Part shown: piece after piece, positions 10,587 to 19,422 of the stretch | Layout of the letters: each line of letters opens with the position of its first letter | How positions within the stretch are numbered: position 1 is the first letter of the stretch | Source: an uncultured bacterium | Lineage (GTDB): Bacteria; Cyanobacteriota; Vampirovibrionia; Gastranaerophilales; Gastranaerophilaceae | Length of the DNA: 34,548 bases | Direction of reading: 5' to 3' | Assembly (NCBI GenBank): GCA_949282195.1 | Contig: CASDOW010000029.1 | Location: 1 to 34,548 of the forward strand | Notes under the pieces: model-generated | The model's database searches: none | What the model saw: the letters and a program-made list of their open reading frames with translations, nothing else | Told to the model about the DNA's origin: nothing | Made by a program: the position numbers and the translations under genes

Positions 10587-11113
10587 ATGAGGAAAATAGC
10601 ATATTGTTTAAGACATAATCCATTCGGATGCCACTTAAACATGGACAAGGAAGGTTATGTACCAATCAATGAATTACTATGTTTTTTAAATGGCACTAAT
10701 AAATGGATAGAAACAATTGATATAAATGATATACGCAAAACAATAGAAATTTCAGACAAAAAACGATTTGAACTCAAAGACGACAAAATAAGGGCCTATT
10801 ACGGACACAGCATTTGCCCGACAATTGTAAAAATTGTTTCAAAACCCCCCGAAAAACTTTACCATGGAACATCACACAAAGCAGCAGATTTAATACTATC
10901 GAGCGAATTAAACAGTCAAAAAAGACAATATGTACATTTGTCAACTAATATAGGCGCTGCAAAAAAATTGGCTCAAGAAGAGACAAGCATCCTGTCATTC
11001 TTGAAATTGACGCACAAAGCGCATATAAAGACGGCGTTAAATTTTATTTGGGCAATGAAGATGTATGGCTCTCAGATAGCATACCCTCTAAATACATTAA
11101 AAAATTGACTTAA
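10587..11113 (+). pseudogene. kptA: RNA 2'-phosphotransferase KptA/Tpt1, frameshifted
   Basis: KptA/Tpt1 enzymes remove a 2'-phosphate from RNA using NAD+. The N-terminal part (AYCLRHNP, DKEGYVPINELL, KKRFEL, IRAYYGHS) and the start of the ADP-ribosyltransferase-like part (LYHGTS, YVHLS) are clear in the frame from 10587. Near 10980 that frame leaves the family, and the expected ending appears one frame over: HPVILEIDA, DGVKFYLGNEDVWLSDSIP and KYIKKL, ending TAA 11111-11113. A single lost A (GAA-AGA-GAC read as GAA-GAG-AC) explains it. In the original frame translation instead runs into unrelated residues and stops at 11108. The gene is therefore either recently inactivated or hit by a sequence error. 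The first helix seems slightly short; no better in-frame start exists upstream. Confidence 0.8.
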
Positions 11114-12404: not shown

Positions 12405-12486
<82 letters not shown>

Positions 12487-14057: not shown

Positions 14058-14366
14058 ATTAATCCTCCCATATCCTTAATACTACATATATTATATTTTC
14101 TTAAAAAGCATAAAGAAATGCAACAAATTGTAACAATAATTAAAATCCACCCCATACAGTCCCTCTCATTGCGTTATGAGCTTTCTTGGTTGAAGAAATA
14201 AGTTTTCTCATTCTGAGATTTTTCTCGGTTTGAAAACCCCGCCTTGATAAATTCAGATGAGAGCATTCTCGGGCGAATGATGAAATGTTTTGCTGTGGCG
14301 AAGTAAAAATATATTTATAAATGGCTAATTTTGTGATATCCTAAGATAAAATTGGAGGTATTTAAT
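14058..14366. other. divergent intergenic region with a GC-richer block
   Basis: No supportable gene. Bases 14150-14310 are clearly richer in GC than the flanks and hold several short hairpins (CTCAT-tgcgtt-ATGAG, TCTCA-ttc-TGAGA, GAGA-tttt-TCTC). On the minus strand a 23-codon reading frame (MRKLISSTKK…) exists in it, but without independent support. The last 30 bp should hold the promoter and contain the ribosome site of the nuclease gene. Confidence 0.4.
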
Positions 14367-15341
14367 ATGACACAATTATGGATGGTCAGAGCTCAAGGCG
14401 GAGAATTGTTGCCTACTTTTTTAGAAAATAAAATTGTTTCTATTGGCTGGTGTTCAGATATTGATTTTACAGGATTCAAAAAAGAGGATTTTAGAAAAGC
14501 CTTGAAACGAGAGTATCCGTCCAGCTTAAAATCAATACCTGCTTGGGTTGGCTTTTGTGAGAATTTTGTAAATAAAATGCAAATAAATGATTATGTTTTA
14601 ACTTATGATTCTGCACAAAGAGTATATCATATAGGCATTATTACTAGTAATTACAAATATGATTCAAAATTGCAAGATTCTCATACTAGAGCAGTAAATT
14701 GGTTTAATAAAACAATTTCAAGAGATTTGATTTCAAATAGTACTAAGAATTCATTAGGATCACCTCAAACAATATTTAGACTTTCATCGGAACAGAAAGA
14801 TGAATTATTACATATTTTAAATCAAAAAGAAACTTTTATTAAAGACGATACCATTATAGAAAACAATAAAGAATTCTCTGAAACATTATTTGATAATGCA
14901 AAAGAAAGTTTAAAAGATTCAATTAATAGTTTAAATCCTGAAGAAATGGAAGAACTCATAAAAGAAGTATTAAATGCAATGGGGTATGTTGCAAAACGTT
15001 CTAAAAAAGGTTCCGATAGGGGAATTGATGTATTTGCATCAACAGATGGTCTTGGTCTTGAAGAACCTAGGATATTTGTAGAAGTTAAACACCGCAGTGG
15101 TCAAATTGGAGCTCCTGCTATAAGACAATTCCTTGGGGGACGAAAGCAAGGAGATAAATGTTTGTATATTAGTACTGGTGGTTTTTCAAAAGAAGCTCTT
15201 TATGAAGCAGAAAGAGCCAATATTCCATTAACCTTGGTTGATATAAATCTATTAGCTGAAACTATAACAAGATGCTATGATAAATTTTCTGTGGATGGGA
15301 AAATGCTACTACCGCTAAAAAAGATATATATACCTGCATAA
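14367..15341 (+). CDS. Mrr-like modification-dependent restriction endonuclease
   Basis: 324 residues from ATG 14367, chosen because GGAGG lies 8 bases upstream; a TTG at 14352 overlaps that site. The N-terminal 110 residues start MTQLWMVRAQGGELL and include VSIGWCSDIDFTGF and VLTYDSAQRVYHIG, a PUA/EVE-like layout seen in nucleases that sense modified bases. The C-terminal domain is Mrr-type: an ELIKEVLNAMGY helix, then GSDRGIDVFAS (Asp221) and IFVEVKH (Glu239, Lys241), which form the D…ExK PD-D/ExK site, then LYISTGGFSKEAL. No methyltransferase gene is nearby, fitting a type IV enzyme that cuts modified phage DNA. The stop codon abuts the stop of the convergent XRE gene. Confidence 0.8.
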   Translation: MTQLWMVRAQGGELLPTFLENKIVSIGWCSDIDFTGFKKEDFRKALKREYPSSLKSIPAWVGFCENFVNKMQINDYVLTYDSAQRVYHIGIITSNYKYDSKLQDSHTRAVNWFNKTISRDLISNSTKNSLGSPQTIFRLSSEQKDELLHILNQKETFIKDDTIIENNKEFSETLFDNAKESLKDSINSLNPEEMEELIKEVLNAMGYVAKRSKKGSDRGIDVFASTDGLGLEEPRIFVEVKHRSGQIGAPAIRQFLGGRKQGDKCLYISTGGFSKEALYEAERANIPLTLVDINLLAETITRCYDKFSVDGKMLLPLKKIYIPA

Positions 15342-15659
15342 TCAATAATCTAGAGCCATAACAATTCTATATACAGTTTTTAGTAAGTTTGGATTATTTT
15401 TTAATCGTTTTATGATTTCATCTAATGATATATCTTCCGGCACATCCGAATATTTAAAATCAAAAAGCACGTTAGGAGTTATATCGAGCGCAACACATAA
15501 ATCTTCTAATGTTTCAGCAGAAACAAAGTTGTTGCCCAATTCAATCTGACTTAGACTTTTGGCAGAAAGATTTATCTTTTCAGCCAATGCTTCTTGTGTT
15601 AAAGAACGACTATTTCTTATCTCTCTTATGCGATTACCTAAATTTTTCTTAATACTCAT
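15342..15659 (-). CDS. XRE-family HTH regulator
   Basis: 105 residues. Residues 8-63 form a Cro/C1-type helix-turn-helix (LGNRIREIRNSRSLTQEALA, then LSAKSLSQIELGNN, then ETLEDLCVALDI). A short C-terminal helical tail may dimerise. It is transcribed divergently from the glycosylase gene and converges on the nuclease gene. The 100-bp divergent region contains a 21-bp palindrome (15702-15722) overlapping a TTGACA box, the likely operator. A role controlling the neighbouring defence-type genes is inferred from position. Confidence 0.85.
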   Translation of the reverse strand: MSIKKNLGNRIREIRNSRSLTQEALAEKINLSAKSLSQIELGNNFVSAETLEDLCVALDITPNVLFDFKYSDVPEDISLDEIIKRLKNNPNLLKTVYRIVMALDY

Positions 15660-15701
15660 ATTATCACCTTAATATACTTAAAATGGGAGTTACACACATT
15701 G

Positions 15702-15722
15702 ACAATAGAGTTAATCTATTGT
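15702..15722. promoter_or_regulatory. palindromic operator overlapping a promoter
   Basis: Perfect inverted repeat ACAATAGA-gttaa-TCTATTGT between the XRE gene and the divergent glycosylase gene. A TTGACA -35-like box (15699-15704) overlaps its left arm. Size and position suit XRE dimer binding. Confidence 0.6.
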
Positions 15723-15759
15723 AAATTGAATGATAGAATTTTTAATAGAATAGGCGCAA

Positions 15760-16428
15760 ATGGAAAAAGACTATAAGCAAATGTTCAATATTCTTGACGG
15801 CTACTTAAAAGATAAAGTGCCCGATATTGACCTGACTATCTTAGAAGCAGTTAATAACCGCAAAAACGGCAAAATCTTTACTTTTAAAGAACATTTAAAA
15901 GGCTTTATTTATGCTCAATTAAGCGCATTGGTTTCTTGGAAAAAGATTAAAGATAAACTCAAATGTTATAGCCCCTATACTACAAAAAATCAAATGCAGT
16001 CATTAAAAGCAAATATTGAAACTTTTGAGAAAATCGAGCAGGATTTTGGAAGTCTTGAAAAATTTGTAACCCACACAATGCCTGTAAACATTATCAAATT
16101 ACTTGCCGATAGTAAAAGTACCTACAAATTAAAGTATTCAGGCGTTGCTCTTGTATGTGAGTATCTTAGAAATGTTGGTATTGATGTAATCAAACCCGAT
16201 GTACATATAAAAAGAATTTTAGGGGTGGAAAGATTAAACATTGTAAAAAGTACATCTGATTATGCAGTTATAAAAGAATGCAAAAAACTTTCTGATAAAA
16301 TTGGAGTCAGCCAAGTAAAAATAGACTATTTATTATGGAATTACTGCTCAAAAGGTTATGGCGAAGTTTGTAGTGCAAAACCAAAGTGCGCAGAGTGTGT
16401 TATTAAGGAATATTGTAATAAAGGTTAA
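15760..16428 (+). CDS. endonuclease III-like HhH-GPD DNA glycosylase
   Basis: 222 residues. It has the endonuclease III/HhH-GPD features: a helical core, a hairpin region leading into IDVIKPDVHIKRILG (141-155) where Asp147 matches the catalytic Asp of the family's VDTHV motif, and a C-terminal iron-sulphur ligand set Cys204-x5-Cys210-x2-Cys213-x5-Cys219, close to the usual C-x6-C-x2-C-x5-C. I do not see the G-x-G-x-K-T-A catalytic Lys of bifunctional enzymes (the region reads KYSGVALVCEY), so a monofunctional glycosylase is more likely. It would excise a damaged or modified base. It sits within the integrated element beside an XRE regulator and one base before a small gene, so it may serve in defence rather than housekeeping repair. 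Confidence 0.7.
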   Translation: MEKDYKQMFNILDGYLKDKVPDIDLTILEAVNNRKNGKIFTFKEHLKGFIYAQLSALVSWKKIKDKLKCYSPYTTKNQMQSLKANIETFEKIEQDFGSLEKFVTHTMPVNIIKLLADSKSTYKLKYSGVALVCEYLRNVGIDVIKPDVHIKRILGVERLNIVKSTSDYAVIKECKKLSDKIGVSQVKIDYLLWNYCSKGYGEVCSAKPKCAECVIKEYCNKG

Positions 16429-16429
16429 A

Positions 16430-16714
16430 ATGTCAATCATAGAAGAAATTGAAGAGTTTGTTAAATCAATTCCGTTAGATTATGAGTTTTCAACAAAGTG
16501 GTTTAAAACCGAATTAAGCAAACAATATAGCAGACCTGCTGAAAGCTACATACCTTCTGATTATTGTTATAACAGGAAAAACAAAGGCATAAATTACAAT
16601 AAACAACCTCACTATTTTTTGCGTTTAGGGCAAGGTAAATATAAGTATGTCGGCAAGAACTATATTTTCACAGGTGAGGTTGAAGAAATGCCAAAAATGA
16701 AAAATCGCTTGTAA
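16430..16714 (+). CDS. small protein with SDYCYNR motif
   Basis: 94 residues from ATG 16430, one base after the glycosylase stop (TAA-A-ATG). A longer in-frame start at 16358 would lie inside the glycosylase gene and is not preferred. Its central part reads YIPSDYCYNRKNKGI, then PHYFLRLGQGKYKYVGKNY, a compact domain that I associate, from memory only, with proteins next to or fused to restriction-type nucleases. The tight spacing implies co-translation with the glycosylase and perhaps a physical partnership. Function unassigned. Confidence 0.6.
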   Translation: MSIIEEIEEFVKSIPLDYEFSTKWFKTELSKQYSRPAESYIPSDYCYNRKNKGINYNKQPHYFLRLGQGKYKYVGKNYIFTGEVEEMPKMKNRL

Positions 16715-16758: not shown

Positions 16759-17019
16759 TTGCAAATAGTTTATATAATACTTTTGATGTTAATATTAGCA
16801 GAAATTATTAAGTTGTTAGAGCCAATAGGTATTTTATTGGTGTGTATATTTTCCCATATTTCAAGCATAATTTTTGCAATAACAATGTTTATAGTCTTAT
16901 TTGTACTAACAATAACAGCTATAAATTATTTCAAGTATAAAGATGAAACGGAAGAAGAACGAGCAGAAAGATTAAAGCGACAAGAAATGTTAGATAAGTG
17001 GCGCAAGCAGTTTAAATAA
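16759..17019 (+). CDS. small membrane protein (TTG start)
   Basis: 86 residues with hydrophobic segments at about 3-33 and 38-58, then a charged, Lys/Glu/Arg-rich tail (TEEERAERLKRQEMLDKW) that is probably a cytoplasmic helix. The start is a TTG, supported by AAAAGGAA 8 bases upstream; the next ATG is at codon 10 without a site. Located between the glycosylase module and the integrase region. Function unknown. Confidence 0.5.
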   Translation: MQIVYIILLMLILAEIIKLLEPIGILLVCIFSHISSIIFAITMFIVLFVLTITAINYFKYKDETEEERAERLKRQEMLDKWRKQFK

Positions 17020-17546: not shown

Positions 17547-17792
17547 ATGGTAATTATTACAATTCCAAAAATCAACGCTAGTAATGACGCTGGCAAACTG
17601 CACAACTGTATGAGATTGATGCCACTTATACGACCGTTGCAAAAGAATTTAGTTAAAGACAGAAAACAGGAGGAACACTACCTAAGAGAAAATTCAGCGA
17701 TTTACAAATTACCGGTCAACTTGATAAAACTTGATAAAGTAATGTCAAAAGTGATAGGCTATACTCTAATCACGCACTCTCATGGCATTTAA
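17547..17792 (+). CDS. short ORF upstream of the integrase, uncertain
   Basis: 81 codons starting ATG 17547 with AAGGAG 7 bases upstream. The product is basic (NLVKDRKQEEHYLREN, VNLIKLDKVMSKVIGY), lacks a recognised domain, and could be an excisionase-like or accessory protein by position only. Other frames across the same stretch also give protein-like fragments (IDATYTTVAKEF), so this may be a degraded gene rather than an intact one. Confidence 0.3.
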   Translation: MVIITIPKINASNDAGKLHNCMRLMPLIRPLQKNLVKDRKQEEHYLRENSAIYKLPVNLIKLDKVMSKVIGYTLITHSHGI

Positions 17793-17896
17793 AAAGCCTT
17801 TGTTTAGGGTTGGTTTTTGCTTTTTCACTCAATTCCGTGATTAAGTCTTTACATCTAACAATCGTTATCCTACAACAAAACAAAAAGGAGGAAACG

Positions 17897-17988
17897 ATGA
17901 GTTTTCGACAACGCAACTGTACGATGGCAACGTAGGAATGCAAGCTCTGCCGAGTACCACAGGAGCAGAGGAGAATGCAAATGGCTAA
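17897..17988 (+). other. two mini-ORFs leading into the integrase
   Basis: ATG 17897 has a strong AAGGAGG and encodes 12 residues (MSFRQRNCTMAT) ending at TAG 17935. ATG 17938 then opens 16 codons (MQALPSTTGAEENANG) ending at TAA 17986-17988, overlapping the integrase start at 17981. This nested arrangement looks like a leader controlling integrase translation. Confidence 0.4.
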
Positions 17989-19243
17989 AAGAAGACGTAA
18001 CGGCGAAGGCTGTTTTCAGAAAAGCACTTGCGGCAGATACATTGAATATCGAGTTACATATTATGATGAACTTGGTAAAAGAAAGCTAAAAACATTCTCT
18101 CGCAAGACAAAAGAAGAATGCTTGCAAGCGCACAAAGAATGGAAAGCAGAGCAAGAAGGTAAATGTCCTGATGAGATGAGCGAAAATATTACAGTTGCAC
18201 AATAGGCAAATACTTGGTTTGAAAATTATGTTGTAAATCACGTAAAAGAAACTACCGTTAACGACGATAGAAGCATTTTAGATAGGCACATTATTCCTGA
18301 TTTAGGACATTTATTACTAAAAAAGCTAACTCCTCACTTATTAACAAAATTTTATAACGCTTGCTTAAAAAAGAGTAACGGCAAAGGCGGAACACTTGAC
18401 CCCAAAACTGTGAAAAATATTAGAGCAGTATTAAATAGAATGCTCAAATGTGCTTGCATAATTGGTATTTTAAAAGATAACCCGAACGCCCTAGCTCTTT
18501 ATCCAAAATGCACTAAGAAAGAAACCGAAATTTTAAATTCGGAAGATTATGACAAACTCATAAAACATTGTATTGACCAAGCTACTCAATGGGATATGTT
18601 AATCATTTTCCTCTTATGTGTAGGCGCAAGATTAGGTGAGGCACTAGGATTGCAATGGTCAAAGGTTAATTTTGAAAAGCAAACTATTAGAATTGCCCAG
18701 CAAATGCAATCAGTACCAAACAAAGATAAGAACTCAAAATACAAATACACAAAGAAGATTATAGATTCCACAAAGACAAAAAGGTCTAACAGAACATTGC
18801 CAATGTCAAGTGATATTGAGCATATATTACGCTATGTTAGAAAGTTGCAAGCTGTAAACAAAATGGCGCAAGGAGCAAAATATCATAGAGATTTAGACCT
18901 TGTATTTGCACGTGAGGACGGATATTTCATTTGCGATACTACTTTTAGAACTTTTGTTAATAAACGGTTAGCAGAAGCAGGAATCGAACATCATAAAATA
19001 CATTCATTTCGCCATTCTTGCGCTACAAGTTTCTTTGAACAAAAAGCTGATATTAAGAAAGTGTCAAAGTGGCTCGGTCACAGTTGCATTGGAATTACCT
19101 TAGATACTTATACGCACGTTCAACCTCAACATCTGGAAGAACTTGCAGAGTTACAAAATAACAAATTTAAAAAAATCTTCAACAGTAACGAAAAAGATAT
19201 TCCAGATGAAATGTTACCAAATAAAGATGATTGGGGTGCATAA
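17981..19243 (+). pseudogene. int: tyrosine recombinase (integrase) with in-frame amber codon
   Basis: The frame is continuous from ATG 17981 (GAGGAG 7 bases upstream) to 19243, except for TAG at 18203-18205 (codon 75). Read through, it gives 420 residues: an N-terminal AP2-like arm-binding domain (RRNGEGCFQK, GRYIEYRVTYYDELGKRKLK), a SAM-like core-binding domain (about 70-170), and a catalytic domain with Arg217 (GARLGEAL), His341-x-x-Arg344 (HSFRHS), His367 (WLGHS) and Tyr377 (LDTYTHV), the complete set. The stop lies at ITVAQ-stop-ANTWF, where Trp is usual, so TGG to TAG is the simplest explanation. The gene points at the right attachment repeat. It is probably inactive unless the codon is suppressed or miscalled. 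A downstream restart at 18410 would give only the catalytic half. Confidence 0.8.

Positions 19244-19378: not shown

Positions 19379-19422
<44 letters not shown>

Follow-up and report, generated by a model that had tools for sequence, protein, structure and literature searches.

A mobile unit of an endonuclease III-like glycosylase, a divergent XRE regulator and a candidate DNA-reading partner in tRNA-Met elements of Gastranaerophilales

In a stretch of 34,548 nucleotides from an uncultured member of the Gastranaerophilales (hereafter, the window), four closely packed genes encode an Mrr-type nuclease, an XRE regulator, an endonuclease III-like DNA glycosylase, and a small protein called SDYCYNR, which belongs to the DUF7225 family. 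The locus raises the question of whether these genes form one defence system and, if they do not, which of them belong together and what they might do. A first-pass annotation had proposed that the nuclease and the glycosylase are two prongs of an attack on modified phage DNA, and had named conserved co-occurrence of the four genes as a test of this idea. The four reading frames are all present as described, including the cysteine motif of the glycosylase and the regulator with its palindrome (Table 1). Comparison with related loci showed that the genes are real, yet that they are not one four-gene system.

Table 1. Features of the element in the window (positions are those of the whole stretch)
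Feature	Position	Strand	Basis or remark
Left att repeat, 44 bp	12443..12486		Inside tRNA-Met(CAT) 12405-12481 (-); perfect direct repeat of right copy
Left-slot cargo gene, 244 aa	12795..13529	-	75% identical relative in same-site L065; weak DUF5677 similarity
Left-slot cargo gene, 174 aa	13533..14057	-	67% identical relative in L065
Conserved non-coding motif, left edge of second cargo slot	14259..14290	+	Exact in 17 loci
Mrr-type nuclease, PDC-S02 family	14367..15341	+	Mrr_cat E=1.5e-24; PADLOC PDC-S02 E=3e-80
XRE regulator of glycosylase operon	15342..15659	-	HTH_19 1.5e-12; divergent XRE in 22/25 loci
Putative promoter with palindromic operator 15702-15722	15699..15727	+	TTGACA-17-TAAATT
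HhH-GPD DNA glycosylase with iron-sulphur motif, 222 aa	15760..16428	+	Alignment and fold of full-length relative
DUF7225 protein (SDYCYNR), predicted winged-helix DNA reader, 94 aa	16430..16714	+	PF23870 E=1.7e-20
Small predicted membrane protein, optional, same operon as glycosylase	16759..17019	+	5/25 loci
Serine resolvase remnant	17565..18020	+	Fragments with stops only; Resolvase PF00239 4e-42 in an intact relative
Tyrosine integrase, interrupted by TAG 18203-18205	17975..19243	+	Phage_integrase 8e-27; alignment with 422-aa relative
Right att repeat, 44 bp	19379..19422		Perfect direct repeat of left copy

The placement of these genes inside a mobile element, also part of the first-pass annotation, is confirmed by the element's boundaries. 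The two att repeats enclose an insertion of 6,936 bp, and the corresponding site is empty in three congeners (G136, G232, and G272), in which the right flank continues directly from the tRNA. The same tRNA and repeat serve most of the sister elements, and the glycosylase units are housed in such elements of ~7 kb, integrated in tRNA-Met of Gastranaerophilales. As had been reported for the four genes, no methyltransferase was seen among the proteins of the window element that were scanned. Just beyond the element, at 10587-11108, lies a gene for an RNA 2'-phosphotransferase (KptA/Tpt1-like, 5e-27).

The genes found in the upstream slots of sister elements are those of an OLD-like nuclease in L034, AIPR/AbiU in L045, a KAP NTPase in L048 with a match to PDC-S20, CAP12-TIR proteins in L037 and L042, Beta/PD-Lambda-2 in L046, and PDC-M19A in L039. 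In L169, where a NERD protein stands in for the glycosylase, an ATPase and a methyltransferase matching PD-Lambda-5_B are found as well. This variety marks the element as a carrier of varied defence genes, and in elements so rich in cargo guilt by association is weak for any single gene. The motif at the edge of the second cargo slot, GAGAGCATTCTC-N6-ATGATGAAATGTTT, was found in exact form in 17 fetched loci, several of which are one and the same place, and no occurrence within the window would be expected by chance. It adjoins the cargo slot in many sister elements and precedes mrr in genome G082; it has no Rfam match and is possibly a recombination or RNA site.

To define the recurring unit, 25 glycosylase loci, including that of the window, were scored by tblastn and, for XRE, also by blastp. 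The unit consists of a divergent XRE gene and an operon that opens with the HhH-GPD glycosylase. Of the XRE genes, 20 were detected by tblastn, and those of L034 and L040 were added by blastp. A DUF7225 gene follows the glycosylase in 13 loci, in one of them as a fusion, and the remaining loci, about half of the set, do not contain it. A resolvase is present in 20 of the 25 loci and a downstream integrase in 18. In the order as a whole, the glycosylase occurs in 22 of 286 genomes and 10 of 50 genera, counting a marginal match in G209; within the window's genus, no further genome on the list has it. The genes always lie in variable loci, and the plasmid, phage, and viral collections searched contained no relatives. 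Purifying selection is evident within the glycosylase family (dN/dS ~0.12, and 0.11-0.23 when the window copy is one of the pair), and dN/dS of the XRE genes is ~0.06.

The mrr gene has no part in this recurrence, as it is present at one of the 25 loci, namely in the window, and absent from the other 24. The L065 element, which occupies the same site and has the same left cargo, has no mrr, and compared with it the gene is an insertion of ~1 kb between 14309 and 15340. In G082, an mrr gene 93% identical to that of the window is found near tRNA-Met without this XRE and without a glycosylase. In four further elements (L036, L041, L044, and L062), the slot between the non-coding motif and the XRE gene is taken by a gene for a 455-aa protein, which is unrelated to mrr and has no Pfam or PADLOC match. 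Because of these observations, mrr is an independent, swappable passenger defence gene in the neighbouring cargo slot, and the co-occurrence on which the proposed pairing was to be judged breaks down at this gene. The PADLOC model PDC-S02, which is matched over its full length (residues 1-324), describes a single-gene candidate, and the window gene fits it, lying outside the glycosylase unit. While the Mrr assignment of the first-pass annotation is well founded, the EVE/PUA-like N-terminus is doubtful, with a match to Pfam EVE (E=0.19) below the cut-off.

The glycosylase was characterized from a full-length relative (G244), whose model, built from a 12-row alignment, has a pLDDT of 91 and a pTM of 0.90. 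The model aligns over its whole length to the HhH-GPD enzymes EndoIII, MjOgg, and MutY, with Z scores from 16.2 down to 12. In the family alignment, the aspartate of the GPD motif is invariant, as are the cysteines C230, C238, C244, C247, and C253, and the window protein has the motif C-X6-C-X2-C-X5-C. By sequence, the protein matches the PADLOC model 'OGG' with E about 1e-6, and the match to the Pfam iron-sulphur cluster motif of EndIII is near, yet below, the cut-off; that to Pfam HhH-GPD also falls below its cut-off. The hairpin position 18 residues ahead of the aspartate, where Nth and OGG have their catalytic lysine, is occupied by V, F, or Q, as judged by sequence spacing rather than superposition. 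With this lysine absent, the protein, if active, would be a monofunctional, aspartate-dependent enzyme; alternatively, members of the family might bind DNA without catalysis. Searches of solved structures by sequence returned no significant match for the glycosylase, the DUF7225 protein, or Mrr.

Identity with the housekeeping enzyme Nth was considered and rejected. The genome encodes a separate Nth (G000:C11, 83 bits) with the canonical KGVGRKTA motif, profile comparison aligns only the C-terminal part of the two proteins, and the patchy distribution of the glycosylase is not that of a core gene. The grouping with housekeeping Nth enzymes that the first-pass annotation had asked about was thus not found. 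More distant relatives without the cysteines are present in Treponema. Two of these, L077 (1657-9043) and L078 (4173-8291), are near genes for ZorA, a ZorB-like protein, and a third gene, with a ZorB match of 1e-69 in L078; by eye, L077 also has kinase-like, vWA-like, and PP2C-like genes. In two other Treponema loci, L079 and L080, no neighbours of the ZorA/ZorB type were seen, and we found no literature on a combination of Zorya with a glycosylase. The Zor neighbours lend a defence role of the family slight support.

The copy in the window has features of a decayed element, which had been missed in the first-pass annotation. Compared with full-length relatives, its glycosylase, as assembled, lacks 30 residues (90 bp, in frame). 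The gap follows base 15954 and separates codons 65 and 66; the sequence matches the relatives on both sides of it, and similar A-rich stretches border it. The missing residues correspond to the model helices 71-77 and 83-87 and to most of 91-100, and loss of these three helix regions predicts a likely loss of function, so the window glycosylase is probably impaired. Furthermore, the in-frame TAG of the integrase gene is located where the relative encodes Trp, and the resolvase gene is wrecked.

The small SDYCYNR protein had been listed in the first-pass annotation without interpretation. Its model, from an alignment that left out two rows from plasmid records, is a winged helix (pLDDT 90). The structural matches are mostly winged-helix proteins and weak (best Z 5.7), and the reader domain of DpnI is among the best of them, also weakly (Z 5.5, 60 residues, rmsd 2.2). 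DUF7225 is fused to an HNH domain in L180 (HNH 6e-16), to a McrB-type AAA protein with adjoining McrC in L181 (McrBC 4e-97), and, on two plasmids of Bacillaceae (L183 and L184), to DUF6998; its gene directly follows that of GmrSD in L182 (4e-34). These architectures make DUF7225 look like a module with which type IV restriction systems read DNA. Modification-dependent restriction enzymes thus share the domain, and we infer that it reads modifications; we found no literature on it.

A fusion of the glycosylase with DUF7225 occurs in G163, and DUF7225, rather than EVE-Mrr, is the likelier partner of the glycosylase. Both partners can be exchanged: two elements have a NERD nuclease-related protein beside DUF7225 where the glycosylase would be, and a second partner domain takes the place of DUF7225 in L065 (8001-9269, fused) and L068 (2192-2668, adjacent). 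These two versions are 34% identical, and the domain has no family match. Such exchange of partners suggests a restriction system built from readers and effectors. In L046 (13530-15140), the same genome stretch contains a further XRE cassette, which has a similar operator and encodes DUF7225 and a PDZ-domain protein, but no glycosylase.

Between the divergent genes lies a perfect 8-5-8 palindrome, ACAATAGA-GTTAA-TCTATTGT, which is kept with few changes in several sister elements. It is overlapped by the promoter-like site that ranks best for the divergent operon, a class of sites whose frequency is in general no higher than in shuffles. The arrangement suggests that the XRE protein represses the operon.

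Taken together, we consider it moderately probable that the unit is an anti-phage defence based on base excision, analogous to the Brig systems and built on a different glycosylase superfamily, in which an XRE-repressed HhH-GPD glycosylase acts, here and in about half of the other loci, with a DUF7225 reader. The XRE protein would bind the palindrome over the promoter and keep expression of the operon low. When foreign DNA enters, DUF7225 would recognize a chemically modified or otherwise non-self feature and bring or license the glycosylase, which would flip out and remove bases with the aspartate conserved in its GPD motif. Phage replication may then be blocked by the resulting abasic sites and by breakage at them. 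The Mrr nuclease would be a defence gene in its own right that reached the adjoining cargo slot. Since the glycosylase is not a housekeeping enzyme, the element carries defence genes, and the partner is linked to type IV restriction, the most coherent role is one directed against modified bases of phage DNA. This part of the original proposal can be retained, now by way of DUF7225, while the EVE-Mrr pairing is abandoned.

Other explanations were weighed against this one. The XRE-glycosylase-DUF7225 unit might serve the element itself, by controlling integrase and resolvase, by helping it to establish, or by excluding rival elements, with DNA binding mattering more than base removal. The position of the operon, on the same strand and directly upstream of the resolvase and integrase in 18-20 of the 25 loci, would suit such a role, as would the missing catalytic lysine, and XRE proteins are often master repressors of elements. 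However, there are related elements with integrase/resolvase genes that lack the glycosylase, in other settings DUF7225 is built into restriction enzymes, and the glycosylase-DUF7225 fusion locus L051 has no integrase nearby; we regard this explanation as unlikely. Slightly less likely still is a DNA-repair accessory, that is, an Nth paralogue that protects the element or its host and is not a weapon. The EndoIII/MutY fold with its iron-sulphur motif and the purifying selection are compatible with repair, but not the restriction to variable loci in few genomes, the XRE control, a partner common to type IV restriction, or the presence of the genome's own Nth. A toxin-antitoxin-like module, in which XRE restrains a self-toxic glycosylase, is very improbable: the XRE gene with a palindrome over the promoter speaks for it, and the regulator weakly matches antitoxin models, as most XRE proteins would, but the genes are divergent, there are no signs of toxicity, and a reader domain would be superfluous. 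The four-gene system is the least credible and largely refuted by co-occurrence, although Mrr and glycosylase genes are adjacent in the window, both families are linked to modified DNA, and the McrB polypeptide of L181 combines DUF7225 with a stretch that resembles the N-terminal part of the window Mrr. Moreover, mrr lies outside the XRE-controlled operon.

More tentatively than the favoured reading of an XRE-repressed glycosylase with a DUF7225 reader, and with a little less than even confidence, we propose that the units represent a new arm of modification-dependent restriction in gut Gastranaerophilales, in which an endonuclease III-type glycosylase replaces the nuclease, exchangeable readers or other partner domains, DUF7225 among them, are paired with or fused to it, XRE acts as a switch, and tRNA-Met elements serve as defence shuttles. 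The anti-phage glycosylases known so far are mainly Brig enzymes of the UDG superfamily. If the HhH-GPD family also acts on phage DNA, immunity by base excision had more than one origin, and readers of type IV restriction are able to work with an effector that removes bases; the unannotated domain DUF7225 would then obtain a function class. Intact gene pairs, such as those of G244, L034:7351-8394, and the G163 fusion, are available for direct testing, and the compact element samples defence genes within a lineage whose phages are little known.

Among known systems, Brig1 and Brig3 are glycosylases that defend against modified phage DNA (PMC11078745, PMC13160076). Brig1 and Brig3(-BapA) share with the present unit a DNA glycosylase, a defence context, and an operon with an accessory gene, and abasic sites in phage DNA are proposed for both. 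In contrast to Brig1, which belongs to the uracil DNA glycosylase (UDG) superfamily (PMC11078745), as does Brig3, the window family is HhH-GPD, with a C-terminal iron-sulphur motif, a partner predicted to be a winged helix, and putative XRE control. It is thus not a member of the Brig family, but may work like one, and the comparison with Brig1 made in the first-pass annotation stands as one of analogues, not of relatives. Endonuclease III, MutY, and MjOgg share the fold (Z 12-16), the GPD aspartate, and the iron-sulphur cysteines with the window family, which differs in lacking the Nth/OGG catalytic lysine, in falling below the Pfam HhH-GPD cut-off, and in being patchy and mobile. Base removal as a means of restriction is also used by R.PabI and R.CcoLI of the HALFPIPE superfamily (PMC5059719, PMC7806768), which offer an analogy; R.PabI acts at a fixed sequence, and no modification enzyme was found in the window unit, whose glycosylase is of a different superfamily. 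Finally, type IV restriction systems (McrBC, McrA/HNH, GmrSD, and those with DpnI-type readers) have in common with the unit the layout of reader and effector and the DUF7225 domain, fused or adjacent elsewhere, but here a glycosylase takes the place of the effector and is mostly a protein distinct from the reader.
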